Translations under genes and position numbers: made by a program | NCBI RefSeq assembly: GCF_003666015.1 | Contig: NZ_QPLT01000001.1 | Coordinates: 62,001-126,000, forward strand | Reading direction: 5' to 3' | DNA length: 64,000 nucleotides | Origin: Halorubrum sp. Atlit-26R | Lineage (GTDB): Archaea; Halobacteriota; Halobacteria; Halobacteriales; Haloferacaceae | The notes under the pieces: model-generated | What the model saw: the letters and a program-made list of their open reading frames with translations, nothing else | Databases searched by the model: none | Told to the model about the DNA's origin: nothing | Shown: positions 4,382-16,206 of the stretch, piece after piece | Layout: each line of letters opens with the position of its first letter | Numbering within the stretch: the stretch's first letter is position 1

Positions 4382-4472
4382 TCGTCGGCTGATCGTACGC
4401 CGGTACCGCTCATAACTCCGGCGGGCGCGGCCACCGGCTGAGAACCGCCTCCCGGCCGCGCCGTTTACGAGT

Positions 4473-4631
4473 TCACCCGAGCATCCGAACGACGCTGCCG
4501 AGGAACACGAGGAGAAGCAACGCGACGAGCAGCAACAGCGCGGTGAGTTTCGCCCCGGGGCCGGAGCAGCGCCCGTCGGACCGTGCGTCGCCCTTCCCGA
4601 GACGCTCCCGCTGCCGGCTCGGTACGGTCAC
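4473..4631 (-). CDS. Small single-pass membrane protein at the tail of the surface-protein operon
   Basis: A 52-residue ORF: a GTG start overlaps the upstream stop as GTGA (4628-4631), then a polar Arg/Gly-rich segment of about 24 residues, one strongly hydrophobic helix (AKLTALLLLVALLLLVFLG) and a short VVRMLG tail. The coupling overlap matches the three other overlaps in this operon, which is the main reason to believe it. It has no recognised family. By position it may be an accessory factor for the signal peptidase or the fibre proteins, but that is inference. Confidence 0.6.
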   Translation of the reverse strand: MTVPSRQRERLGKGDARSDGRCSGPGAKLTALLLLVALLLLVFLGSVVRMLG

Positions 4632-5224
4632 GTTCGCGCTCCCTGGCCGGACCGCGACGGATCCGGGGAGTGACGAACCGCGACCGCGTCGACGTCGTTC
4701 GCGTCGGGCGCGGTCGACCCCTCGGCGGTCGCGTTCCCCGCCGGAGCCGACTCGTTCGTCACCGTCCCCTCACTCGGCCGGCTCGACTGGTCTCCCGTCG
4801 GATCGGTCGGTGTCGAATCGTTTTCGTCCGTCTCGGTTTCGTTCGTCACCAGCGCCGAGTCGTTTTCGTCCGTCTCGGTTTCGTTCGTCACCAGCGCCGA
4901 GTCGTTTTCGTCCGTCTGTGGGACCGTGGTGTTCTGTTCAGTGGTCGGGACCGTGGCGTTCCCGGCGGTCTCCGTGCCGTTCGCCGCCGCCGACGTCCCG
5001 TTCCCTCCCACAGCGGTCGTCCCGTTCTCGACCGGCACGGTCGCCACGGTGAACCCGCTCCCGCTCGACTCGTTGACCTCGCCCAGTTCCTCCGGCGTCT
5101 CGAACGTCGTCGTCACGTCGACGCTCGCCGAGAGGACCGCGACCGTGGCCCCGCCGGCGAACGCGACGCTCCACACCAACACGGCCAGCGCGACGAGCGC
5201 GACGAGCCCGCGGTTCGCGGGCAT
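4628..5224 (-). CDS. Sequon-rich secreted or membrane-anchored protein with tandem repeats
   Basis: A 198-residue protein with one N-terminal hydrophobic segment (LVALVALAVLVWSVAFAGG) and then an extracellular, Asn/Thr/Glu-rich region. It holds about a dozen N-glycosylation sequons (NGT, NAT, NTT, NDS, NET) and a 14-residue repeat, TDENDSALVTNETE, present twice and partly a third time. The ATG overlaps the signal-peptidase stop (TGATG), so the start at 5224 is preferred over the in-frame ATG at 5518. The next small gene overlaps its stop. It has no known family. It looks like a heavily glycosylated stalk or cell-surface component of the fibre locus. Confidence 0.7.
   Translation of the reverse strand: MPANRGLVALVALAVLVWSVAFAGGATVAVLSASVDVTTTFETPEELGEVNESSGSGFTVATVPVENGTTAVGGNGTSAAANGTETAGNATVPTTEQNTTVPQTDENDSALVTNETETDENDSALVTNETETDENDSTPTDPTGDQSSRPSEGTVTNESAPAGNATAEGSTAPDANDVDAVAVRHSPDPSRSGQGART
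4818..4920 (-). repeat. 42-bp tandem repeat inside the sequon-rich protein gene
   Basis: Two identical 42-bp units (4818-4859 and 4860-4901) and the start of a third encode TDENDSALVTNETE. The units keep the reading frame and each adds two sequons, so copy number could change length and glycan load without breaking the gene. Confidence 0.8.
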
Positions 5225-6327
5225 CAGTCCACCTCTCCGGCGGCGTCGGGGCGTGCTGTCGGCGTCCGTACCGGTGCCGACTCGTCCGGTTCCACGCGCT
5301 CTTCGCCCGTCGCGACCGCCGCCGAGTCCGTCTCGCCGGAATCCGCGTCGCTCTCGCCGGAATCCGCGTCTCTCTCGCCGGAATCCTCGTCGCTCTCGTC
5401 GGCTTCTGCGTTGCTCTCGGAGACCCCGCCGTCGGCGGCCGTTTCCGACGCGTCGCCCTCCGACTCCGACGCGGCGCTCTGAACGCTCCGGTCGAGTACG
5501 CCGCTCGCCGGCACCCACATCGCGAGCGCGCCGAACAGGAGCGTCGCGGTCGCCACAGCGACCGCGATCGCGGCGGCGCTCCGGAGCTCGAACGCGACGT
5601 ACGCCGCGTACGGAGCGAAGACGGCGAGTACCGCCGCCGCGCCGCCGACCGCGTCGACCGAGACGCCACCGGAACCGCTCGCGGCGGTCGCTGCGGCCGT
5701 CGGGGCGAGCTCGGGCTCGGCTGCGAACTCGAACGCCGCCGTCTCGGCGTCCCCTCCGCCGACCGGCTCGCCGTCCGGATCGGCGGTCGCGGTGGCCGGC
5801 GACTCCGCGCCGTCGCGGCCACGGACGATCGACCAGACCTCGGTGACCGCGAGCAGGCCGAACGGGAGCAGCACCAGCGCCACGAACCCGACCCGGGTGC
5901 CCGCGAACTGGATCACGTACCCGATGTACGGGATCGTCAGCGTCACGACGCCGACGAGGCTCCCGGCCGGGACGAGCCCCGGATCCGGTCCCTCGTTGGC
6001 GTCGCCCATCGTCTCGAACGCGAGCGCCCCGCCCTCGTCGACCACGTCGATCACGCGGTGCGTCACCGGGACGTCGCTCGTGCCCCGAATGAACGTGATC
6101 ACGTCGCCCTCGGCGATCGCGGCCGGGTCGCGGTCGGCGACGATCACCACGTCACCCGGCGCGATGGCGGGCGTCATACTCGCCGTGAGCACGACGAAGC
6201 TCTCGTCGGCGCCGACGACCTCGGGGGCCGCGTACGCGGCGAACGGCGCGACGAGCGCGATCAGCAGGACGATCCCGAGTACGTTCGCCGCGCGCTTCGT
6301 CCGTGGTGCTGTGAGTAGGTTTGTCAT
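5224..6327 (-). CDS. Signal peptidase I, ER/SipW type (Ser-His)
   Basis: A 367-residue membrane-bound type I signal peptidase. An N-terminal membrane helix (residues 13-35) is followed by LTASMTPAIAPGD with nucleophile Ser50, then DVPVTHRV with His90 in place of the bacterial Lys, then GDANEGPD with the conserved Asp. Ser-His is the Sec11/SipW dyad. More membrane helices follow (about 125-165 and 215-260), and the protein ends in a long acidic Ser/Glu tail with SGESDAD repeats. It overlaps both neighbours (TGATG), inside an operon of secreted proteins with SipW-style leaders. It is therefore probably the dedicated processing enzyme for them, as SipW is for TasA in Bacillus. The soluble tail is unusual. 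Confidence 0.88.
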   Translation of the reverse strand: MTNLLTAPRTKRAANVLGIVLLIALVAPFAAYAAPEVVGADESFVVLTASMTPAIAPGDVVIVADRDPAAIAEGDVITFIRGTSDVPVTHRVIDVVDEGGALAFETMGDANEGPDPGLVPAGSLVGVVTLTIPYIGYVIQFAGTRVGFVALVLLPFGLLAVTEVWSIVRGRDGAESPATATADPDGEPVGGGDAETAAFEFAAEPELAPTAAATAASGSGGVSVDAVGGAAAVLAVFAPYAAYVAFELRSAAAIAVAVATATLLFGALAMWVPASGVLDRSVQSAASESEGDASETAADGGVSESNAEADESDEDSGERDADSGESDADSGETDSAAVATGEERVEPDESAPVRTPTARPDAAGEVD

Positions 6328-7583
6328 CAGTTCGCCTCCGTGTCGTCGTTTCCGCCCCCCTCGCCTCGGCCGACGCCGGCGTTCGCGGATTTGCCGTCGG
6401 GTTTCCCGGGCGTTCCGTTCCCCTTCCGGCCGTTTCCGCCGCTGTTGCCGGTCCCACCGCCGTTGCCGTTTCCGCCGCCGTTGCCGGTCCCGCTACCGTC
6501 GCCGTCACCGGTGCGGTCGTCGCCGTGCTCCTCTCCGCCGCCGCTGTCGTCGGCTCCGCCCCCGGCGCCGTCGCCGGCGCAGACGCTGACGGTGACGTTG
6601 CTGACCCCGTACCGCTTGCCGTTGTCGGAGTTCAGCGGCGCGAACACGATCTCACCCGTCTCCGGAGACGCCGGATCGATATCGACGGGATCGGGGTTCC
6701 GGTCCGGTCCGCCCTTGACAGCCACGGAGCACATGTCCGGCCCCGGGTTTCCGTCGGCGTCCCGAAGCCGGAACGCGACGCCGACGACCTCGCCGCCGTC
6801 TTTCGTCTCGACCTCGGTGATCTCGATCTCGTACGATCCCCCCTCATCAAACTGGAGCACGTCGCCGACCGCGGTCGACCCGCCGAAGTTCGCCGTGCCC
6901 AACTCGACGCACTCGGGGCACTCCGTCTCCGTCTCCCCGCAGACGACATCCGCGAAGGGGTTCGCCCCCGGGGCGTTCGCCTGCTCCTCCGTGACGTGGC
7001 GACACTGCTCGGCGTACAGCCGGAACGTCAGCTCGGTCGTCTCTCCGCCCACGTCGGGCGAGTCCGCCGGGAGATAGGGGGCGACCTCGACGACGATCGG
7101 GTCGCCGTCGGGGGCGGCCGCGAGGCAGCCGTCGTCGATCCGCACCCCGGTCGCGAGGAGGCGCTCGACCTCGACGAGCGGCCGGTAGCCGCCCGTCACC
7201 GACTCGCCGTCGACGACGACCTTGACTTCGAGCGCGTTCCCGAGCCGGTCGCCGTCCGGGCACTCCGTCGCGAGCCAGACCCGAACGGGGTTCGCCGACG
7301 CCCCGATCTCGAACCCCTCGGGCTCGGGGCGCCGGTCGAACGTCGTCCGATCGACCCCGAACGGATCGACGGTGACGGTCCCGTCCGTGGGTTCGCCGTT
7401 CACCGTCAGCCCGACCTCGCCGGCGCCGAAGACGTTGTTCGCGAACGTCTCCCGGTCCGAGAGGTACGCGCCCGTGCCCATCCCGCTCGCCATCCCGACG
7501 GCGCCGACGCCGCCGATCCCGGCGAGCAGCCGGCGGCGGCTCAGCCCGCTCGGGCGCCGTCCCGAATCGTCTCCGGGGGTCAT
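6327..7583 (-). CDS. Secreted SipW-type signal protein with Gly/Asn-rich tail
   Basis: A 418-residue protein. The leader is Tat-like (LSRRRLLAGIGGVGAVGMAS, residues 14-33) and ends in TGAYLSDRETFANN, close to the TAYFNDTE...NN signature of its neighbours, where SipW-type processing is expected. The middle (about 50-205) is a beta-rich domain with paired Cys, and its YAEQCRH matches the end of the TasA-like fold. A second beta domain (about 215-325) follows, then a low-complexity tail of Gly, Asn, Asp and Lys. Its start overlaps the upstream stop (ATGA) and its stop overlaps the signal peptidase gene. It is probably an extracellular structural component; no enzyme motif is seen. Confidence 0.72.
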   Translation of the reverse strand: MTPGDDSGRRPSGLSRRRLLAGIGGVGAVGMASGMGTGAYLSDRETFANNVFGAGEVGLTVNGEPTDGTVTVDPFGVDRTTFDRRPEPEGFEIGASANPVRVWLATECPDGDRLGNALEVKVVVDGESVTGGYRPLVEVERLLATGVRIDDGCLAAAPDGDPIVVEVAPYLPADSPDVGGETTELTFRLYAEQCRHVTEEQANAPGANPFADVVCGETETECPECVELGTANFGGSTAVGDVLQFDEGGSYEIEITEVETKDGGEVVGVAFRLRDADGNPGPDMCSVAVKGGPDRNPDPVDIDPASPETGEIVFAPLNSDNGKRYGVSNVTVSVCAGDGAGGGADDSGGGEEHGDDRTGDGDGSGTGNGGGNGNGGGTGNSGGNGRKGNGTPGKPDGKSANAGVGRGEGGGNDDTEAN

Positions 7584-8368
7584 TGTCCCACCTCGGTGGC
7601 GTCGCCGCCGGTCGCGTCGCTCATCGCGAAGGGGTTCCCCTCGGCCGAGCAGTCGTCGGCGGCGAACCGCACGTCGAAGTCGACGGCGCCGCCCTGTCCG
7701 GCGTTACCGCCCTCCCCGTCGAACTCCCAGGTGAAGGTCAGACAGCGGCGCTCCTCGGTCGTGAGACAGCCGTTCCCGAGCAGCGTGGGATCGAGTTCGA
7801 TCCCCGTCGCCACCGGGTCGGCGTTGAGTTCCGCGAGCGTGCCGGCGGCGATCAGCTCGCCGTAGCCGGCGAAGTCGCTCTCGGCGCCCGCGCACGCGCC
7901 GACCCCGAGGAGGCCGGTGTCGTACCGGACCTCCAGCCGGATGCGGTCGGCGAGCGCGCGGTCGACCGCGCTCACGTCGGGGCCGTCGAGGGCCGGGCCG
8001 ATCTTCAGCCACACCCGGACGCCGTCGGGCGCTACGCCCGCGGGGTCCTCCAAGCGGAGGCCCACGCTCGCGGTCCCGGTGTCGTGGGGCAGGGCGTTGT
8101 CGACGTCGACGAGACGGATTCCGGCCGCCTCGACGTCGTCTTCGGCGTCCGTCGGGCTCGAATCGACGACCGTCCCGTTCTCCCTCCGCCGCCAGCCGAC
8201 GAGCAGGTCCCACGGCCGGTCGGTCTGCGCGTAGGTGTAGTCCGTGTACTCACCCCAGCTGTCCGTTCCCGTCGGCCGTCCGGAGGCGGCTCCGAGGGTC
8301 GCGAAGCCGACGGCTCCGGCGCCCGCGAGTGCCTCCCGCCGCGTAAGTCCTGATTCCTTCTGTGTCAT
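7580..8368 (-). CDS. Tat-secreted TasA/camelysin-like beta-sandwich protein
   Basis: A 262-residue protein with a twin-arginine leader (LTRREALAGAGAVGFATLG). It shares the order of elements seen in the other four proteins of the locus. These are WDLLVGWRR after the leader, an ASVGLRLEDPAG/WLKIG strand pair, a DRIRLEVRYD strand, TLAELNADP, and the closing LTFTWEFDGE...VDFDVRFAADDC. It lacks the TAYFNDTE segment, so its leader may be cut at a different place. It is first in a four- or five-gene coupled operon leading to the signal peptidase. It is proposed to be a minor or capping subunit of the same assembly; this is inference from shared pattern, not a database hit. Confidence 0.68.
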   Translation of the reverse strand: MTQKESGLTRREALAGAGAVGFATLGAASGRPTGTDSWGEYTDYTYAQTDRPWDLLVGWRRRENGTVVDSSPTDAEDDVEAAGIRLVDVDNALPHDTGTASVGLRLEDPAGVAPDGVRVWLKIGPALDGPDVSAVDRALADRIRLEVRYDTGLLGVGACAGAESDFAGYGELIAAGTLAELNADPVATGIELDPTLLGNGCLTTEERRCLTFTWEFDGEGGNAGQGGAVDFDVRFAADDCSAEGNPFAMSDATGGDATEVGQ

Positions 8369-8481
8369 TGTGTGTCGTCGCGGCTCCGAACGGCCGTGTC
8401 GTCGATGTGATCCCTCGTCTCTGCCCTCTCTACCGTCGCCGTAGTCGTATGTATACGCGTCATACCCGACCGGTCCGGTGA

Positions 8482-8509
8482 CCGTACCCGGCGGTACGGG
8501 CGCCGTACC
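8482..8509 (-). promoter_or_regulatory. CCGTACC palindrome upstream of the signal-peptidase operon
   Basis: CCGTACC-CGGC-GGTACGG is a perfect inverted repeat (8482-8499), followed by another CCGTACC at 8503. It lies 115 bases upstream of the ATG at 8368. The same half-site recurs in the divergent promoter region at 13558-13627, so it may be the operator of the neighbouring winged-helix regulator. Confidence 0.45.
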
Positions 8510-8584
8510 CCACCGCGCTCGCCCGATCGGTCCCGCCGTCGATCGGCTTCGACCGTCACGTCGCGATGGGTCCGAAACCCCCGA

Positions 8585-10294
8585 TCAGGCCGGCAGCGAC
8601 GGCCCGGAGCCGTCGTTGTGGCGCGCCTGTTCGGTGTAGAAGCCCAGATCGAAGGCGAGCGTGTCGCCCTGGATCTCGTTGCCCACGCCGATCGGGAGCT
8701 CCCACTCGAGTGCGACGCAGTGCATCACGCCGTCGCCGCGGAACGCGTCGCGGTCCGGGTCGTCCGCCGGGTCCGCGAGCTCGTCGTACAGCGTCGCGCG
8801 GTTGCCGTCGAGCGGGATCCCGTCCCCGTCGGCGAGCTCGGCGAGGACGTTCGCGAGCGTGTCCTCCATGATGACCTTCTCCTGCGTGGCCTGCGCCGCG
8901 AGGTTGCCGAACACCGTCGGGATGTTCAGCGGGTCGTCGAGGTCGTTGAAGAACAGCGGATCGCCGCCCGTCCCGCCGGCGGGGCCGGCCATCGATTGGA
9001 GCGTGCTCGCGCTGCCGTCGACGTTGATCGTGAACAGGTCGGTCGCGGGGCTCGGCGACGCCGCGCGGGCGTCGTCGGCCGCCGCGGTGGGCGAGGAGAA
9101 CGTCGTCGAGCCCGTCCCGTTGAACGACTCGCCGTCCGAGAGGACGATGTTCTGCTTCGCGACGCCGGTCCGGCCGTTCGCGTCGAGTTCGGCCTGCGCG
9201 TCGTCGACGCCCTCGCCGATGTACGTGCCGGTTGCGATACCGCCGCCGCCCACGAACGGGTCGGGATTCCCGTCGCCGTCGAACGGAGTCGAGCCCGCGC
9301 CGCCGCTCACGACGTTCGCGAGCTTCTGCCGCAGGTTCGTCAGCGCGCCGTCGACCACGGACAGGTCGTCGGTCAGGGGCTGTAAGATCCCGGTCCGGGG
9401 TTCGTTGTCGCCGTTCTTCTCGCCGTCGAAGTACGCGACGCCGACCTCAACGTCCGCGTTCGAGCTCTGGAGGAAGTCGATGAACTGCCGGGTGCCGAGT
9501 TCGACGAGGTCGATCTTCGTCGTCTCGTCGTAGGTGCTCCCGTTGATCGTGATGTCGTCTTCGCTCACCACGCCGCCGAACCCGTCGTACAGCATCGAGC
9601 CCGAGAAGTCGAGCGTCAGCATGATGTCGACCGGCTCGGCCGGATCGTAGACGTTGTCGCAGTCCTCGTCGTACCAGAGCCGCGCCTCGATGGCGTCGCC
9701 GAGGTCGCCGAGGTTGTCCGGATCGACGAGCAGCTCGGGCTCGGTTTCGGTGCCGCCGTCGTCGTCGACGTTGGCCGCCTGCATCCAGATGTAGCCGGGG
9801 TTGTCACAGAGGTGGAGCGAGAAGGTGATCTCGCCGGAGTCGCCGGGCTTCACGTCGGTGAGCTGAACGAGCGTCTCCATCTCCTCGCCCGTGACCGGAT
9901 CCGTCCCGAAGTCCGCCTCCGAGAGCGGCGGGATGTTGTCGCAGGTCAGCACCGGGAGGTTCGCGCCGTTGCTGTCCGCGTCGGTCTCGTCCGGGAAGTC
10001 GCTGTACTTGGACACCTCGCCGTCGATCTCGACGGACTGCTCGCCGTCGCCGTCGTGGTCCGGGTGCGCGCTGACGAACTGGCGGCCCTCGCCGAAGTCG
10101 TAGGTCTGTTGCCAGTCGACGAGCAGGTCGAGCTGGCCCGCGGTGAGGGTGTTCCCGTCGAACGACTCGGTGTCGTTGAAGTACGCCGTGGTGCCGAGGC
10201 CCGCGCCCGCCGAGGCCACGCCGACCGCGCCGAGGCCGGCCAGCACGGTCCGCCGCGAGAGTCCGATCGTGTCTATTTTTTCGTTGTCTGTCAT
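8585..10294 (-). CDS. SipW-signal surface protein: von Willebrand A domain inserted in a TasA-like fold
   Basis: A 569-residue secreted protein. The leader (SRRTVLAGLGAVGVASAG) runs into LGTTAYFNDTESFDGNTLTA, the SipW/TasA-type processing region. The N-terminal half of the beta-sandwich has VKPGDSGEITFSLHLCDNP and an EARLWYDEDCDNVY strand. A vWA domain then begins, with MIDAS residues DFSGSM (Asp229), and runs to about residue 455. After it the sandwich resumes with ADGDGIPLDGNR and the closing HCVALEWELP/GNEIQGDTLAFDLGF/YTEQARHND strands. vWA domains bind protein ligands through a metal ion, so this may be an adhesive subunit. Its leader RNA carries a UUCG hairpin. Paralogues lie immediately upstream at 10434 and 11881. 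Confidence 0.85.
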   Translation of the reverse strand: MTDNEKIDTIGLSRRTVLAGLGAVGVASAGAGLGTTAYFNDTESFDGNTLTAGQLDLLVDWQQTYDFGEGRQFVSAHPDHDGDGEQSVEIDGEVSKYSDFPDETDADSNGANLPVLTCDNIPPLSEADFGTDPVTGEEMETLVQLTDVKPGDSGEITFSLHLCDNPGYIWMQAANVDDDGGTETEPELLVDPDNLGDLGDAIEARLWYDEDCDNVYDPAEPVDIMLTLDFSGSMLYDGFGGVVSEDDITINGSTYDETTKIDLVELGTRQFIDFLQSSNADVEVGVAYFDGEKNGDNEPRTGILQPLTDDLSVVDGALTNLRQKLANVVSGGAGSTPFDGDGNPDPFVGGGGIATGTYIGEGVDDAQAELDANGRTGVAKQNIVLSDGESFNGTGSTTFSSPTAAADDARAASPSPATDLFTINVDGSASTLQSMAGPAGGTGGDPLFFNDLDDPLNIPTVFGNLAAQATQEKVIMEDTLANVLAELADGDGIPLDGNRATLYDELADPADDPDRDAFRGDGVMHCVALEWELPIGVGNEIQGDTLAFDLGFYTEQARHNDGSGPSLPA

Positions 10295-10304
10295 GAGTGT
10301 AATG

Positions 10305-10316
10305 TCCCCGAAGGGA
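10305..10316 (-). promoter_or_regulatory. UUCG-tetraloop hairpin 10 nt before the start codon
   Basis: In the mRNA sense this reads TCCC-TTCG-GGGA: a four-pair stem closed by C-G around a UUCG tetraloop. It ends 10 nt before the ATG at 10294, where a ribosome-binding site would normally lie. The same 12-mer stands at nearly the same distance (9 nt) before the next gene upstream. Confidence 0.55.
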
Positions 10317-10389
10317 GTCCCACCGACGGAGTCGAACCGTCGTACGCCACGTGGGGGACCGCAGTCGCCGCGGTCGGGTGCGCCACGGA

Positions 10390-10410
10390 CTGCCCGGAAG
10401 TCCCGGGCAG
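10390..10410 (-). terminator. Hairpin after the 10434-11759 gene
   Basis: CTGCCCGG and CCGGGCAG form a perfect 8-bp stem with a 5-nt loop, 24 bases past the stop codon of the upstream gene. A second, 6-bp hairpin (10357-10375) follows. No strong T-run is present, so this could be an mRNA end or processing stem. Confidence 0.45.
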
Positions 10411-10433
10411 GTGCCGTGCGTACGGTTCCGGGC

Positions 10434-11759
10434 TTATTCGACGCTGATGTCGAACGCGACGCCCTCGTCGCTGCCGGAGTAGTCGCCCTGTACGTCCACG
10501 GTCACGTCTCCGGTGATCGTGAACGTGTTCGCGACGTCCGCGGCGTCGGTGTCGAACACGAGGTAGGTGACCTCGCGGTCGGGCCCGTCGTTCGACGCCG
10601 AGACCGCGTCGGGACCGCTGAGGGCGACAGCTGTGCCGTCGAGGTCGAGCGCGAGATTCGCGACCGAGACCGACGCCTCGTCGGCCTTCGTCGTGATTGC
10701 GAGCTTCCCGCTGGGTGCGGGGATCCCGCTCGCGACGTTCACGCCGTCGAGGGTGAACGAGGCGCTGCCGCTACCGTCGTACGAGAAGCTGAACGGAACG
10801 GTGTTCGTGGGCGTCCAGACGTAGTTCGCCGTGGTCGCGCTGCCGACGTCGGGGCCGACCGCGACCTCCCACGAACCCGAGGGACCGTTGTTCCCGAAGC
10901 GGCCGCGGGCGAAGGAGGTCTCCTGCTGGGTGGCGAACTCCTGCTGCTTGGCGAAGCCCTCGCCGGTGCGGGTCGTGATAGAGGGAACGCACGGGTTCGC
11001 CGTGCCGTCGTTGTGGCGCGACTGGACCGCGTGGAACTCGAAGTTCATCGTCAGCGAGTCCGACTGGATCTCGTTGCCGACCGTCGTCGGGATCTCCCAC
11101 GAGAGGCACACACACGGGCCGGTGATGTACGACTCGCCTTCCTCGGGGTCGACGACCTCGGAGTACTCCGCCTGGTCGCCGGGCGCCATCCCCGGCATGC
11201 CGGTGCCGTCAAGCGGCGCGCCGCCGGTGATCGCCGCGATGACGTCGACGAGCGAGCCGGAGACGATCTCCCCGTCCGCGAGGGGTTCGCCGTCCTCGTC
11301 ACAGTAAGCGAGACTCGCCACGATCGAGTCGCCGAGTTCGCCGAGATCGGGCGTGTCGTCGACGGCCGATTCGGGTTCGTTAATGCCGTTCTCCGCCTGC
11401 GAGAGGTCACCGCACGCCCACATGTACGAGGGGTTGTCGACGATCTCGAAGCAGAACTTCACCTCGCCGGAGTCGCCGGGCTTCACGTCTTCAAGGTCGT
11501 AGAACATTCCCGCGGGGGTGCCGTCCTGCTCACCGGCCGCCGTCTCGGCCTGATTCACTACCGTTCCGTCGCTGTCGTACGAGGCCTCGTAGTTGACGAA
11601 CAAGTCGAGCGAGCCCGCGGTCAGGGTGTTGTTCTCGAACGTCTCCGTGTCGTTGAAGTACGCCGTGGTGCCGAGGCCCGCGCCAGCGGAGGCCACGCCG
11701 ACCGCACCGAGTCCGACCAGCATCTTGCGCCGCGATAGTCCGATTTTGTCGTCGTTCAT
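10434..11759 (-). CDS. SipW-signal TasA-like surface protein with extra C-terminal beta domain
   Basis: A 441-residue secreted protein. The leader (SRRKMLVGLGAVGVASAG, then LGTTAYFNDTETFENNTLTA) is nearly identical to those of the two vWA proteins. The TasA-like sandwich is uninterrupted here: VKPGDSGEVKFCFEIVDNP, then SLAYCDEDGE, then directly PLDGTG and CVCLSWEIPTT/GNEIQSDSLTMNF/AVQSRHND (to about residue 262). A second beta-rich domain of about 170 residues follows, with many Thr, Ser, Asp and Trp. It resembles the Trp-containing choice-of-anchor type domains of secreted archaeal proteins, though this is not certain. It is the best candidate for a bulk fibre subunit. A UUCG hairpin precedes the start. 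Confidence 0.82.
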   Translation of the reverse strand: MNDDKIGLSRRKMLVGLGAVGVASAGAGLGTTAYFNDTETFENNTLTAGSLDLFVNYEASYDSDGTVVNQAETAAGEQDGTPAGMFYDLEDVKPGDSGEVKFCFEIVDNPSYMWACGDLSQAENGINEPESAVDDTPDLGELGDSIVASLAYCDEDGEPLADGEIVSGSLVDVIAAITGGAPLDGTGMPGMAPGDQAEYSEVVDPEEGESYITGPCVCLSWEIPTTVGNEIQSDSLTMNFEFHAVQSRHNDGTANPCVPSITTRTGEGFAKQQEFATQQETSFARGRFGNNGPSGSWEVAVGPDVGSATTANYVWTPTNTVPFSFSYDGSGSASFTLDGVNVASGIPAPSGKLAITTKADEASVSVANLALDLDGTAVALSGPDAVSASNDGPDREVTYLVFDTDAADVANTFTITGDVTVDVQGDYSGSDEGVAFDISVE

Positions 11760-11768
11760 TGTGTATCA

Positions 11769-11780
11769 TCCCCGAAGGGA
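11769..11780 (-). promoter_or_regulatory. UUCG-tetraloop hairpin 9 nt before the start codon
   Basis: This is the same TCCC-TTCG-GGGA 12-mer as at 10305-10316, here 9 nt before the ATG at 11759. Further upstream in the leader, an 8-bp stem (11788-11795 with 11801-11808) can also form. Confidence 0.55.
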
Positions 11781-11838
11781 ACTCCCGGCGGCGGTCGCGA
11801 ACCGCCGCGTCGGCCGCCCGAAGGCGCCGAGCCGGGAA

Positions 11839-11860
11839 CCGGACGTGTCTCGTCGTCCGG
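11839..11860 (-). terminator. Hairpin after the 11881-13380 gene
   Basis: CCGGACG pairs with CGTCCGG around an 8-nt loop, 20 bases past the stop codon of the upstream vWA gene. It may end or stabilise that mRNA before the next gene's leader begins. Confidence 0.4.
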
Positions 11861-11880
11861 GGCCGCGTTGCTCCGTGAAG

Positions 11881-13380
11881 CTAGTTCGAATTGCTCACGT
11901 TGCCGGTGCCGTTGGGTGCGGGACCGGGGCTGTTGCTCTCGACATCTGTCCCGTTGAACGAGACGTCCGGGTTGTCGTTGTGCCGCGACTGCTCGGCGTA
12001 GACGGCCAGATCGAAGCTCACGGAGTCGGTCTGGATCTCGTTGCCGACCTCCGCCGGGAGCGTCCACTCGAAGCCGATGCACTGGGTGGTCGCGCCGGGG
12101 TACGGCTGCCGACCCTCCTCCTGGCGGTTGCCGTCGAGCGCCTCGCCGTCGGCCAGCTCCGCGAAGACCTCGCTCATCGTGCCGGAGAGGATCTTCTGTT
12201 CGCCCTCCAAGACGATCTGCGCGATCTCGGCGTAGACGGTGTCGAGATCGGCCGGGTCGGGCGCGAGGAACGCGTCGTCCGGTGACGACGAGATGTCCTG
12301 AACGAGGCTGGCGTCGACGTTGTTGCCGAGCCCGATCCCGAAGATACGCGTGCCGGCGTTCTTGGCCGCGGTGGCGGCCGTCCGAGCGTCGCCGATGTTC
12401 TCGAAGCCGTCGGTCAAGACGATCATGACCTTCGAGGCGCCGGGCGTCGCGTTCGTTCCGCTGGTGAGTTCCGTCTGCGCGACGTTGATCCCGCCCGCGA
12501 CGTTCGTGCTGCCGGACGCGGTGTAGTTGTTGATCGCGTTGATGACGTCCTGGTAGGTCGTCGTCAGCTCTTGGTCCAGCGACGCGCCGTTCGCGAACGA
12601 GATCGCGGCCGCCTCGTCCGGCGAGGAGAGGTTTCCGACGAAGCTCGTCGCGGCCGCCTTCAGCGCCGAGAGGTTCGCGCCGCTCATCGAGCCGGAGGTG
12701 TCACTGACCAAGGCGACTTCCAGCTCCTGCTGTTGGCCCGTTCCCGTGGGCTCGTACACGTTGTCGCAGTCCTCGTCGTACCAGACGCAGACCTCGATGG
12801 CGTCGGCGAGCTCGCCGATCCCGTCGGCGTCTTCACCCTCGTCTTCCAGTTCGGGCTCGGACTGGCCGTTCTCTAAGTTCTCGGTCAGCTCGCCCGCGAG
12901 GTAGAGGAACGCGGGGTTGTCACAGATGTGGATGCTGATGGTGACTTCGCCGGAGTCGCCGGGCTTCACGTCGTCGAGGGTGAACACCGGGATTCCGTCG
13001 CCGTTGACGAGGAACTCGTCCGCATCGGGCGAACAGAAGTCGAACTCCTCTCCCGTAACAAGGTCCTCCCACGCCTGCATGTCCGCAGGGCTGGGCGCCT
13101 GATCGAGCAGGTACCGCCCGTCACCGAGGTCCTCGGCGTCCGGGTAGCCCATGTCGACGACGTCGTCCAGGCGGCCGGGGCCGCCGAGGTACGTCGACTT
13201 GTAGTCGAGCTTGAGGTCCAGCTCGCCTGCGGTGAGCGTGTTGTTAGTGAACGACTCGGTGTCGTTGAAGTACGCCGTGGTACCGAGTCCCGCGCCCGCG
13301 GACGCGACGCCGACGGCGCCGAGGCCGGCGAGCACCTTGCGCCGCGAGAGTCCGATTGTGTCGTTTGTGTCTTGGCTCAT
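11881..13380 (-). CDS. SipW-signal surface protein: von Willebrand A domain inserted in a TasA-like fold (second paralogue)
   Basis: A 499-residue secreted protein with leader SRRKVLAGLGAVGVASAG followed by LGTTAYFNDTESFTNNTLTA. The sandwich opens with VKPGDSGEVTISIHICDNP and EVCVWYDEDCDNVY. A vWA domain is then inserted, with MIDAS DTSGSMSG (Asp227) and a later VLTDG, to about residue 430. The fold closes with ADGEALDGNR and CIGFEWTLPA/GNEIQTDSVSFDLAVYAEQ. The insertion point is the same as in the 8585 paralogue although the vWA sequences differ greatly. The C-terminus is a short Asn/Ser/Pro tail with sequons. The ATG at 13380 is chosen because the leader starts there; the longer frame to 13479 adds 33 unrelated residues. 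It is first of the three-paralogue array. Confidence 0.85.
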   Translation of the reverse strand: MSQDTNDTIGLSRRKVLAGLGAVGVASAGAGLGTTAYFNDTESFTNNTLTAGELDLKLDYKSTYLGGPGRLDDVVDMGYPDAEDLGDGRYLLDQAPSPADMQAWEDLVTGEEFDFCSPDADEFLVNGDGIPVFTLDDVKPGDSGEVTISIHICDNPAFLYLAGELTENLENGQSEPELEDEGEDADGIGELADAIEVCVWYDEDCDNVYEPTGTGQQQELEVALVSDTSGSMSGANLSALKAAATSFVGNLSSPDEAAAISFANGASLDQELTTTYQDVINAINNYTASGSTNVAGGINVAQTELTSGTNATPGASKVMIVLTDGFENIGDARTAATAAKNAGTRIFGIGLGNNVDASLVQDISSSPDDAFLAPDPADLDTVYAEIAQIVLEGEQKILSGTMSEVFAELADGEALDGNRQEEGRQPYPGATTQCIGFEWTLPAEVGNEIQTDSVSFDLAVYAEQSRHNDNPDVSFNGTDVESNSPGPAPNGTGNVSNSN

Positions 13381-13772
13381 GGTTTCTCCCCCGACCCGCC
13401 CCCCGTCCGCGCTGGGCTGACCGAATCGGTTACTCTCCCCTCCGAGGGATACCGACGTAGTTACGCGCTCCCACGCCACCGTCGAACGGCCGATTCCAAA
13501 CGGTAAAAGGTCTCATGCCGCAGGTCAAAGATCGCGTTCGACCGGCGGTCCGACGCTCCTACCCCGGTAGGTTTTGGCGGTAGGACGCCCGTACCGCGGT
13601 CCCCGAACGCGGCACGAGGGCCGTACCCGTCGCGTCGAATCCGACAGGAAGCGCGTACTTTCTCTGCTCGATCGGCGGTCGTCGCGGCCGGCGGCCCATA
13701 CATATACCCTCGTCCGACGCAGTGGGCGACAGAACTCGGGCGCCGCGAGCGCGGCCGCCCGGAGGCCACTTC
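13381..13772 (+). promoter_or_regulatory. Divergent control region between the surface-protein array and its winged-helix neighbour
   Basis: There is no gene in this 392-base gap. It holds several half-sites of one motif: CCTACC-CC-GGTAGG (13558-13571, perfect palindrome), GGTAGG and CCGTACC at 13579-13595, and CCGTACC at 13621. A TATA-like catacatatacc lies about 70-80 bases upstream of the plus-strand ATG at 13773. GGAGG (13761-13765) is a Shine-Dalgarno site for that ATG. The minus-strand leader can form TCCC-TCGGA-GGGGA. Confidence 0.5.
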
Positions 13773-14303
13773 ATGAAACTCCGAAACGACGTGTTACCGG
13801 CCGAACAAGTGTATTCCATCCTCGCGAACGAGCGCCGACGGCGCGCGATCGAACAGCTCGGCGCCGTCGGCGGGACGGTCTCGGTCAACGAGCTGTCGAC
13901 GCTCGTCGCGGGCCGCGAGACGGGCGAGAGCCCGCCGCCGAAGCGCTGCCGCGAGAGCGTGTACACGTCGCTGGTCCAGACGCACTTGCCGAAGCTGGCG
14001 GACGCGGGCGTGATAACGTACGACCGCGAGACGCAGACCATCGATCTCTCGCGACGCGCGCGCGACGTGCGGCTCTACACGGAGATTCTCGCGCCCGGCG
14101 GCGCGACGTGGTCGGAACTCTACCGCGCGCTCGCCGTGGGCTCGCTGCTCGTCGTGCTCGCGGCGCTCCTCGACGTCCCGCTCGTGTCGGCCGTCGACCC
14201 GATCCTCTGGACCAGCCTCGGACTCGGCGCCTTCGCCGCCGCCAGCGCGGTCCAGCTGTGGGTCAACCGCTTCTCGGTGCTCCGGCAGCTTCGGCTCCGG
14301 TGA
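13773..14303 (+). CDS. Winged-helix regulator with two C-terminal membrane helices (DUF7344-like)
   Basis: A 176-residue protein. The N-terminal half is a winged helix: VYSILANERRRRAIEQL, then SVNELSTLVAG, then the recognition-helix region SVYTSLVQTHLPKLADAGVITYD. The C-terminal half has two hydrophobic segments (about 118-136 and 142-160), so the DNA-binding domain is tethered to the membrane. This matches the haloarchaeal DUF7344 type. The ATG at 13773 has a GGAGG site 7 nt upstream and is preferred to the ATG at 13722. It is divergent from the fibre array and is probably its regulator, sensing something at the membrane; the link is inferred from position and the shared palindromes. Confidence 0.7.
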   Translation: MKLRNDVLPAEQVYSILANERRRRAIEQLGAVGGTVSVNELSTLVAGRETGESPPPKRCRESVYTSLVQTHLPKLADAGVITYDRETQTIDLSRRARDVRLYTEILAPGGATWSELYRALAVGSLLVVLAALLDVPLVSAVDPILWTSLGLGAFAAASAVQLWVNRFSVLRQLRLR

Positions 14304-14367
14304 CCGGGCTCGAAAAAGGCTCCTTCTCCGTCGTACTCCGCTCTCGTATCCGAACCGTCGGTCTCCC

Positions 14368-15264
14368 CTACTCGGCGGCGGCCGCGACCGACTCCGGGAG
14401 GCGCAGTTCGAACAGCCGCGCGTCGCAGCCGGCGCATCGTCCGGCGACCACGTCGTAGCTCGAACAGCAGGACTCGACGACGCGCTCTTCGAGCCCGACT
14501 TCGCCGGCGCAGCTCGGACACTCGTCGACGAACAGCCTGAGCGCGCCGAGCACCGCGCTGCGGTCCGCGAGCGCCAGCGTCGTCCAGTCGCCGCGGGTCG
14601 CCGTCAGCACTCGGTCGGCCGCGACGTCCGCCCGGAACGCCGCGCGCGACTCCCAGTGGCCGATCTTCTCGTCGCCCGCGTACGCGAACCCGACGCCCTC
14701 GTACCAGTCGATCGCCAGCTCGTCGGCGTCGATCCCGGTGAGCGTCGCGAGCGCCGCCACGTCATCGCGGTCGCTTCGGTCCCCGCCGACGCCAGTGTCC
14801 CTCGGCTCGCCCGTCGCTGCCGCCCGCCATGCCGACGCGAACTCGGGCGCGAACGCGAAGTCGTCGCCGGCGGGCGTCTCGACGAGGACGCCGGCGTCGA
14901 GCAGGTACGTCTCCGGATCGACCTCTCCCGACGGACGGGGGGATATCCCCCTCGAACCGGGCGTTTTCCCGAACAGCGCGAGGACGCGCTCGGGGAGATA
15001 CCGCTTCGTGAGCTCGGGCGTGCCCGGCACCAGGTAGCCGCGAAGCCAGACCGCCGCGAGCGCGGCGCCGAACCCGGCCGCGCCGAGGAGCGGCGCGCCG
15101 ACCGCGGCCACCGCGGCCGCCCCGCCCGCCGCGATCCCGACGTTAACGATCGTACAGGGGAGACAGCGGTTCTCTCCGGTGTATTCGGGCTGTCGGAGTC
15201 GGTCGACGGCGACGCGCGCGGGTCGTCGGAGGCGATCGGCGGCCGCGTCTCGTAACGCGTTCAT
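14368..15264 (-). CDS. Haloarchaeal membrane protein with CxxC motifs, function unknown
   Basis: A 298-residue protein. An N-terminal Arg-rich amphipathic stretch is followed by CLPC (residues 34-37), two hydrophobic helices (about 40-80), and a soluble middle region. The C-terminus has CPSC, a CC pair and CAGC, which together look like a zinc-ribbon or a redox-active cluster. I recognise no enzyme family. It is common for haloarchaeal proteins of this kind to be annotated only as membrane proteins. It sits on the minus strand between the two winged-helix paralogues, so a role linked to disulfide chemistry of the Cys-containing surface proteins is possible but unproven. Confidence 0.6.
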   Translation of the reverse strand: MNALRDAAADRLRRPARVAVDRLRQPEYTGENRCLPCTIVNVGIAAGGAAAVAAVGAPLLGAAGFGAALAAVWLRGYLVPGTPELTKRYLPERVLALFGKTPGSRGISPRPSGEVDPETYLLDAGVLVETPAGDDFAFAPEFASAWRAAATGEPRDTGVGGDRSDRDDVAALATLTGIDADELAIDWYEGVGFAYAGDEKIGHWESRAAFRADVAADRVLTATRGDWTTLALADRSAVLGALRLFVDECPSCAGEVGLEERVVESCCSSYDVVAGRCAGCDARLFELRLPESVAAAAE

Positions 15265-15571
15265 ATCGGTTCGGACGGCGCGTACCGACCTATGTATGCG
15301 CCGCCTACCGCCGCGTTCGCACTCTACCGACGCCGCGGGTTAGCCACCGCCGCCGCGGGCCTCTCTCCCTCCAATCGTTACAGAAAAATTATGGTATCGA
15401 ACAAAATCAGCTCATTAATCGAGCCCTCATTTCAAAAATGCCACAAAACCGGATTTCAAACTTTTTGTGTGTGTTTTATCGATCGAACTTTATTGCGATC
15501 CCAGTCGGCGAATTAATAGAAAGTGATATGTAATGTCGGCTTAATATATTCACAGTTCAAACGGGTGAGCC
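15265..15571 (+). promoter_or_regulatory. AT-rich intergenic region with promoter of the 15572 gene
   Basis: The 307-base gap is far more AT-rich than its surroundings from about 15375 on. No credible gene is seen; the plus-strand ORF at 15292-15516 has non-halophile composition. A TATA element (cttaatatatt, 15540-15550) lies about 25-30 bases before the ATG at 15572, and gggtga (15561-15566) can act as a Shine-Dalgarno site. Confidence 0.55.
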
Positions 15572-16126
15572 ATGACACCACAACTTATCGGGTCGGACGA
15601 GCCCTCGCCCGCTGACGCGGACGGTCCGTCGCGCGACGAGGTGTTCACGGCCCTGAGCAACCGACGGCGCCGGAACGTGATCAAGTATCTGAAGGCTAAC
15701 GGCACCGAGGCGCGCGTCCGCGACATCGCCGAGCAGCTGGCGGCGTGGGAGAACGACCTCGAGATCCCCGAGGTGACGTACAAGCAGCGCAAGCGAGTGT
15801 ACACGGCGCTTCACCAGTCGCACCTCCCGAAGCTGGCCGCCAGCGGCTTCATCGACTACGAGTCCGACCGGGGGTTGGTGTCGCTCACCGAGGAGAGCCG
15901 CCAGCTGGAGGTGTACCTGGAGATCGTCTCGGACAACGAGATCCTCTGGAGCGAGTACTACGTCGGGCTCGCGGTCGTGTGCGGGCTGCTGGCGACGGCG
16001 GCGTGGGGGGGCACCGTCCCGTTCGCCGGAGTCCCGGGGTACGCGTACGCGGTCCTGTTCGCGCTCGTGTTCGGCGTCTCCGGGATCGTCCACCGTTCGT
16101 CGACGAGGCGGAACCGGCTGAGGTAA
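15572..16126 (+). CDS. Winged-helix regulator with C-terminal membrane helices (DUF7344-like), second paralogue
   Basis: A 184-residue paralogue of the 13773 protein: DEVFTALSNRRRRNVIKYL, then VRDIAEQLAAWEN, then RVYTALHQSHLPKLAASGFIDYE, followed by two hydrophobic segments (about 125-145 and 150-170) and a basic tail. The helix-turn-helix region is more conserved than the ends. It has its own strong promoter in the AT-rich gap. It may act in the same surface-protein switch or in an independent one; no operator copy is seen directly in front of it. Confidence 0.7.
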   Translation: MTPQLIGSDEPSPADADGPSRDEVFTALSNRRRRNVIKYLKANGTEARVRDIAEQLAAWENDLEIPEVTYKQRKRVYTALHQSHLPKLAASGFIDYESDRGLVSLTEESRQLEVYLEIVSDNEILWSEYYVGLAVVCGLLATAAWGGTVPFAGVPGYAYAVLFALVFGVSGIVHRSSTRRNRLR

Positions 16127-16206
16127 CTCCGCGCGGACGCGCTGGACGTCCGAAACCGCGCGGACACCCGCAGGGTTTTAGCCGCGCACGGCGGGAGTAC
16201 GGACAT

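Follow-up and report, generated by a model that had tools for sequence, protein, structure and literature searches.

The 64,000-nucleotide stretch of DNA analyzed here (the window, to which all coordinates refer unless another locus is named) comes from the haloarchaeon Halorubrum sp. Atlit-26R and contains eight genes, A to H, all on the minus strand, which we interpret as a candidate surface-fiber operon of TasA-like proteins with its own SipW-type signal peptidase. A three-paralog array (A, 13380-11881; B, 11759-10434; C, 10294-8585) precedes a block of overlapping genes (D, 8368-7580; E, 7583-6327; F, the SipW-type peptidase, 6327-5224; G, 5224-4628; H, 4631-4473) whose junctions read ATGA, TGATG, TGATG, and GTGA. 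A sequence-only reading of the same DNA had placed all eight genes, the overlaps, and the array at these positions and had compared the locus with TasA and SipW. That interpretation is supported by the results below, with fiber formation as its predicted part.

The secreted subunits and their peptidase

Five secreted proteins with related leaders and a common beta-sandwich pattern had been proposed, and both features were borne out. A, B, C, and E score above the curated cutoff of TIGR04088, the model for SipW-dependent leaders (32 bits for A and 22.7 bits for E), and B also matches NF041928. D falls below the TIGR04088 cutoff and gave no family match. Mature D and mature E each align to B in hhalign (99.5% in both cases; E values of 3e-22 and 2e-23, respectively), so the beta-sandwich pattern reflects true homology and not chance, and A to E can be assigned to one homologous TasA-like domain. 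E ends in a Gly/Asn-rich tail, and DUF7467 repeats occur in some of its relatives, such as that of locus L006.

For comparison, 58 loci were fetched, nearly all of them haloarchaeal and from many genera, together with one metagenome-assembled genome (MAG) of Patescibacteria and one other bacterial MAG. A twin-arginine motif with at least 13 uncharged residues after it is present in 238 of the 243 A- to E-type leaders of the window and the fetched loci, and in only 3 of 48 genes located directly after a peptidase. Nearly all haloarchaeal A- to E-type leaders have the twin arginine at a constant position, and G of the same operon lacks it. TatC genes are present in the genome, and haloarchaea make heavy use of the twin-arginine translocation (Tat) pathway. 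The leaders thus predict that A to E are exported by Tat, already folded. D-type proteins lack the donor-strand-like TAYFSD motif that follows the leader (0 of 41) and have a conserved YTxYTYA instead; D is a possible cap or base subunit.

Two members carry a von Willebrand-type (vWA) domain, in agreement with the sequence-only reading. The vWA domain of A (about 12232-12717) is a clear Pfam match (6e-24). C harbors a divergent insert (about 8945-9631) with the metal ion-dependent adhesion site (MIDAS) motif DFSGS; its Pfam vWA score is weak (0.067), and it was recognized by alignment to the vWA domain of A (88.6%; E value of 2.6e-6), with no alignment to a TasA profile in the negative control. 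A and C share DxSxS, and in both proteins the vWA domain sits inside the TasA domain, interrupting its fold. The MIDAS motif of most long subunits falls near residues 200 to 305 and their terminal TasA motif, QxRHN, near residues 450 to 600; 42 of the 47 SipW-bearing loci encode at least one subunit with a MIDAS motif. At its C terminus, B instead carries a choice-of-anchor W domain (about 10446-10958), which was found in 14 of 57 scanned B-type proteins. Among close species, B-type proteins keep a conserved TasA part but vary in their C-terminal domains (alignment A1, columns 400 to 680; L010:10651-11976 and L018:7553-8884), and these domains look as though they had been exchanged.

The Ser-His signal peptidase of SipW type described previously was confirmed. 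F, which has a C-terminal membrane/acidic extension, passes TIGR02228 (99 bits; cutoff, 51.9), and Ser50, His90, and Asp109 are invariant across 10 relatives. It scores 95.5 bits with the Bacillus SipW equivalog model NF046067, under the cutoff of 190, and is best classified as a relative of Bacillus SipW, not a member of the equivalog. It is a signal peptidase of the endoplasmic reticulum (ER) type, linked in the operon to TasA-type substrates in 46 of 47 loci. Within the genus Halorubrum, SipW-type leaders and a SipW scoring above 95 bits occur together in the same ten genomes, and both are missing from the other five; these genomes are related, so the ten co-occurrences are not ten independent events. 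Cleavage of the leaders by SipW rather than by the general signal peptidase is the expectation from these data. Two arrays of three TasA-like subunits and a DUF7344 regulator occur without SipW (L013:6755-11681 and L017:6182-11338). Since the same genomes contain a SipW operon elsewhere (L014 and L018), these arrays suggest processing in trans.

The sequon-rich protein noted earlier is G, with 13 sequons in a disordered tail. What had escaped notice is that G itself has a SipW-type leader, of the Sec kind, and a donor-strand-like segment; the locus therefore encodes six proteins with SipW-type leaders, not five. In relatives, the protein encoded after SipW has a Sec-type leader ending in a motif such as GGGAGTLAVFSDEVTVQGNF, that is, a SipW leader plus a donor-like segment; the rest of the protein is an acidic or sequon-rich tail. 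In some relatives it exceeds the TIGR04088 cutoff. The leader-plus-donor motif was detected in at least 41 of the 48 genes located after a peptidase; these 48 include a few genes other than G. G lies directly after SipW in nearly all loci, a count that is approximate (L052 and L055 have no called G, and the two "G" neighbors in L068 and L070 go with a different peptidase). Neither G nor the G of one relative gave a family match, and their composition is that of disordered proteins. In Bacillus subtilis, the Ig domain of TapA is dispensable, and TapA cut down to residues 44 to 57 after cleavage still supports biofilm formation (PMC10151520). As these 14 TapA residues suffice, G can be read, by analogy, as a putative minimal TapA-like initiator or anchor.

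H, the 52-residue membrane peptide of the sequence-only reading, has a C-terminal membrane helix, is found conserved downstream of G in at least seven relatives, and also occurs after a SipW-less array; it is classified as a conserved tail-anchored peptide. The idea that H is a frameshifted end of G was rejected, as H is a separate conserved open reading frame in relatives.

Distribution and inheritance of the operon

The usual gene order is a divergent DUF7344 regulator followed by two to five TasA-like subunits, D, E, SipW, G, and H. E and SipW are adjacent in 46 of the 47 SipW-bearing loci, and D, E, and SipW are contiguous in 40. D-type genes were found in 65 of 194 haloarchaeal genomes and 34 of 65 genera, although the weakest matches may be B-type proteins.

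Three further genes lie beside the operon in the window. R1 (13773-14303, plus strand) encodes a winged-helix regulator with membrane helices (Pfam DUF7344, 7e-26); a divergent DUF7344 gene accompanies 43 of the 47 SipW loci, and R1 probably controls the A to C array, the D-E pair, SipW, and G. X (14368-15264, minus strand) encodes a membrane protein with CxxC motifs and no Pfam match that we could assign to no family; it is present in 31 of the 47 loci. X also has a CLPC motif and a cysteine-rich C-terminal end, and besides accompanying most loci it is found elsewhere in some genomes. R2 (15572-16126, plus strand), a second DUF7344 regulator (4e-29), adjoins mutS.

Related genomes reveal the extent of the inherited unit. 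In two of them (G006 and G012) only about 100 bases separate the ZIP and mutS genes, and R1, X, R2, and the operon are all missing; in a third (G002) the operon is likewise missing from the ZIP-mutS site, and the gap is longer. A fourth genome retains a relic between ZIP and mutS (L080:4500-5244; G005:C19), consisting of peptidase residues 76 to 172, 86% identical and without the catalytic Ser, and an H-like C terminus, the other operon genes being gone. Because R1, X, and R2 are missing alongside the operon at the empty site, they are gained and lost with it. The elements of the locus described by the sequence-only reading are thus all present, but its limits of 4473 to 13380 were too narrow: the unit spans about 4382 to 16206.

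A second, simpler locus of the same genome (L001:10063-13499; G000:C2, about 276 to 279 kb) comprises a divergent DUF7344 gene, a TasA-like protein, a 180-residue SipW, and a 193-residue camelysin-like protein that scores above the Pfam camelysin cutoff. The Patescibacteria MAG (L075:10025-13495) encodes two TasA-like proteins, whose Sec-type leaders lack the twin arginine, followed by a SipW-type peptidase. In Natronocalculus amylovorans (L046), a 12-kb segment holds two sets of SipW/TasA-type genes, one on each strand.

Fold comparison, proposed assembly, and alternatives

Mature B and mature D were modeled with AlphaFold2 from 57 and 37 sequences, respectively (mean pLDDT of about 81 each), and the models were compared by Foldseek with 350,542 PDB chains, with 50 matches listed per model. 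By E value, the best match of both was 8aur, the cryo-EM (cryo-electron microscopy) structure of the TasA fiber (4.3e-5 for B and 1.2e-4 for D; probability of 1.00 in each case). Among the later matches of D (E values of 0.04 to 0.6) are two kinds of donor-strand fiber, chaperone-usher pilins and the Sulfolobus thread. Residues 1 to 18 of mature B (LGTTAYFNDTETFENNTL), several of which are invariant, are unstructured in the model and occupy the position of the donor strand of TasA, which inserts into the next subunit (PMC9674648).

These observations suggest a stepwise assembly. A to E, with their conserved twin-arginine leaders, would cross the membrane folded, via Tat. SipW may then cut near the TAYF(S/N)D segment, as leader type, operon linkage, and co-occurrence suggest, releasing an N-terminal donor strand. 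The freed strand would be taken up by the beta-sandwich of the following subunit, yielding a TasA-like fiber, a step suggested by the fold and by the unstructured, conserved N terminus. Sec-exported G, in which a disordered and glycosylated tether would bear the donor strand, might start or anchor the fiber like a minimal TapA, and H might help to keep the assembly in the membrane. To attach the fiber to surfaces or to partner cells, A and C could present vWA domains from within its body, and B could present its second domain. Filament formation, adhesion, and a biofilm function are predicted roles. We consider it likely that the locus is a haloarchaeal TasA/camelysin-type surface-fiber operon assembling in such steps. 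The complete picture, that of a donor-strand fiber whose subunits leave the cell folded via Tat and polymerize only once SipW has removed the leader, and which is started by Sec-exported G, capped or based by D, and bears vWA domains in its body, is a more tentative proposal.

Several results weigh against a fiber of TasA type. Comparison of predicted structures with TasA, a check that the sequence-only reading had suggested, came out in its favor, with 8aur first for both proteins run, but the TM-scores are only 0.27 to 0.45 (0.27/0.45 for B and 0.39/0.39 for D), so that the kinship to TasA is distant. Other jelly-rolls (concanavalin) are close runners-up of B at the same E values. In a PDB profile search with the broad alignment A1, TasA was a weak match (E value of 0.02), ranked behind an unrelated Ig domain, and the PDB sequence searches with the larger alignment A6, with D (A7), and with E (A3) returned no TasA match; the link to TasA therefore rests on the structure comparison together with the weak A1 match. 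The low-confidence N terminus of B could be plain disorder, D has no donor segment, so not all members can behave alike, and no filament of this operon has been observed so far. The distant likeness, the resemblance of B to concanavalin-type jelly-rolls, and the extra binding-type domains of many members would all suit proteins that remain monomeric, as surface- or S-layer-associated adhesins, lectin-like proteins, or vWA receptors for which the SipW leader serves maturation only. Such a monomeric coat is nonetheless unlikely: the donor-like segment after the leader is strongly conserved though unstructured in the model, and G keeps a donor-like segment and hardly anything else folded, which a monomeric coat would not need.

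It is rather improbable that the subunits are exported by Sec as in Bacillus, with the twin arginine incidental and the TasA/TapA assembly scheme unchanged, given the fixation of the motif in nearly all haloarchaeal A- to E-type leaders and not in G, and the heavy use of Tat by haloarchaea. TasA and the Patescibacteria relatives (L075) do have leaders without a twin arginine, and the known donor-strand fibers use Sec (PMC9715654, PMC10151520). The name of the Pfam family, Peptidase_M73, camelysin metallo-endopeptidase, would suggest a secreted-protease locus of camelysin-like metalloproteases and a maturation peptidase. Because the match in A, B, C, and E spans only about 40 residues, from the leader into the adjoining segment, and includes no catalytic domain, we set this reading aside as very improbable; the vWA and choice-of-anchor domains are instead what a surface-displayed protein would carry.

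Relation to known fiber systems

The proposed fiber operon shares with tapA-sipW-tasA of B. subtilis (8aur) the TasA-type fold, the SipW-type leader, a dedicated ER-type signal peptidase in the operon, and a separate leader protein (G here, TapA there) with an N terminus like the donor segment of the subunits. It differs in having Tat-type subunit leaders (Sec in Bacillus), several paralogs per locus, vWA domains within the fold, a G that probably lacks a folded Ig domain and is encoded after sipW, a donor-less D, and DUF7344 regulators. The sipW-calY locus of Bacillus cereus likewise has more than one camelysin-type subunit per SipW, although its two camelysins are of Sec type and no vWA insert, D, or disordered G is reported in PMC10151520. 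TasA and thread subunits are described as Sec exported (PMC10151520, PMC9715654), and folded export of most subunits would be unusual for TasA-class fibers. The chief departure from TasA/camelysin-SipW systems would thus be the predicted Tat export of prefolded subunits combined with Sec export of the initiator.

Among archaea, TasA homologs have been reported (PMC10151520), and the AbpA bundling pili of Pyrobaculum calidifontis are described in PMC9674648 and PMC9715654 as a TasA-related donor-strand fiber implicated in biofilms. The proposed Halorubrum fiber would likewise be archaeal, TasA related, and of the donor-strand kind. AbpA does not appear in the list of 50 matches of either B or D. 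We know of no multi-paralog vWA array in AbpA pili. In the sortase pili of Gram-positive bacteria, vWA tip pilins carry a vWA domain within a beta-sandwich subunit as an adhesive module; these are sortase linked, whereas no sortase logic is evident here, and the likeness is one of analogy only. The Sulfolobus thread (Saci_0406; PDB 7pnb), found among the weaker fold matches of D, is an archaeal donor-strand filament that differs in its Sec export, general signal peptidase I, isopeptide bonds, and lack of SipW (PMC9715654). The text of the Halorubrum lacusprofundi biofilm proteome (PMC5118699) names no signal peptidase or vWA protein.

SipW-dependent leaders are already annotated by NCBIfam models. 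We found no description of a haloarchaeal operon of this kind in the literature searched, a search whose coverage excluded most subscription papers. The Tat leaders, the nature of G, the vWA domains inside the TasA fold, and the co-inherited regulators go beyond the sequence-only reading. If the proposal is right, roughly a third of haloarchaeal genomes would encode a multisubunit TasA-type fiber with vWA members, and the system would allow genetic tests of what restrains donor-strand polymerization in subunits that are already folded when exported. Between close relatives the unit has been gained and lost as a whole, which can serve as a natural experiment for attachment and biofilm formation in brine.

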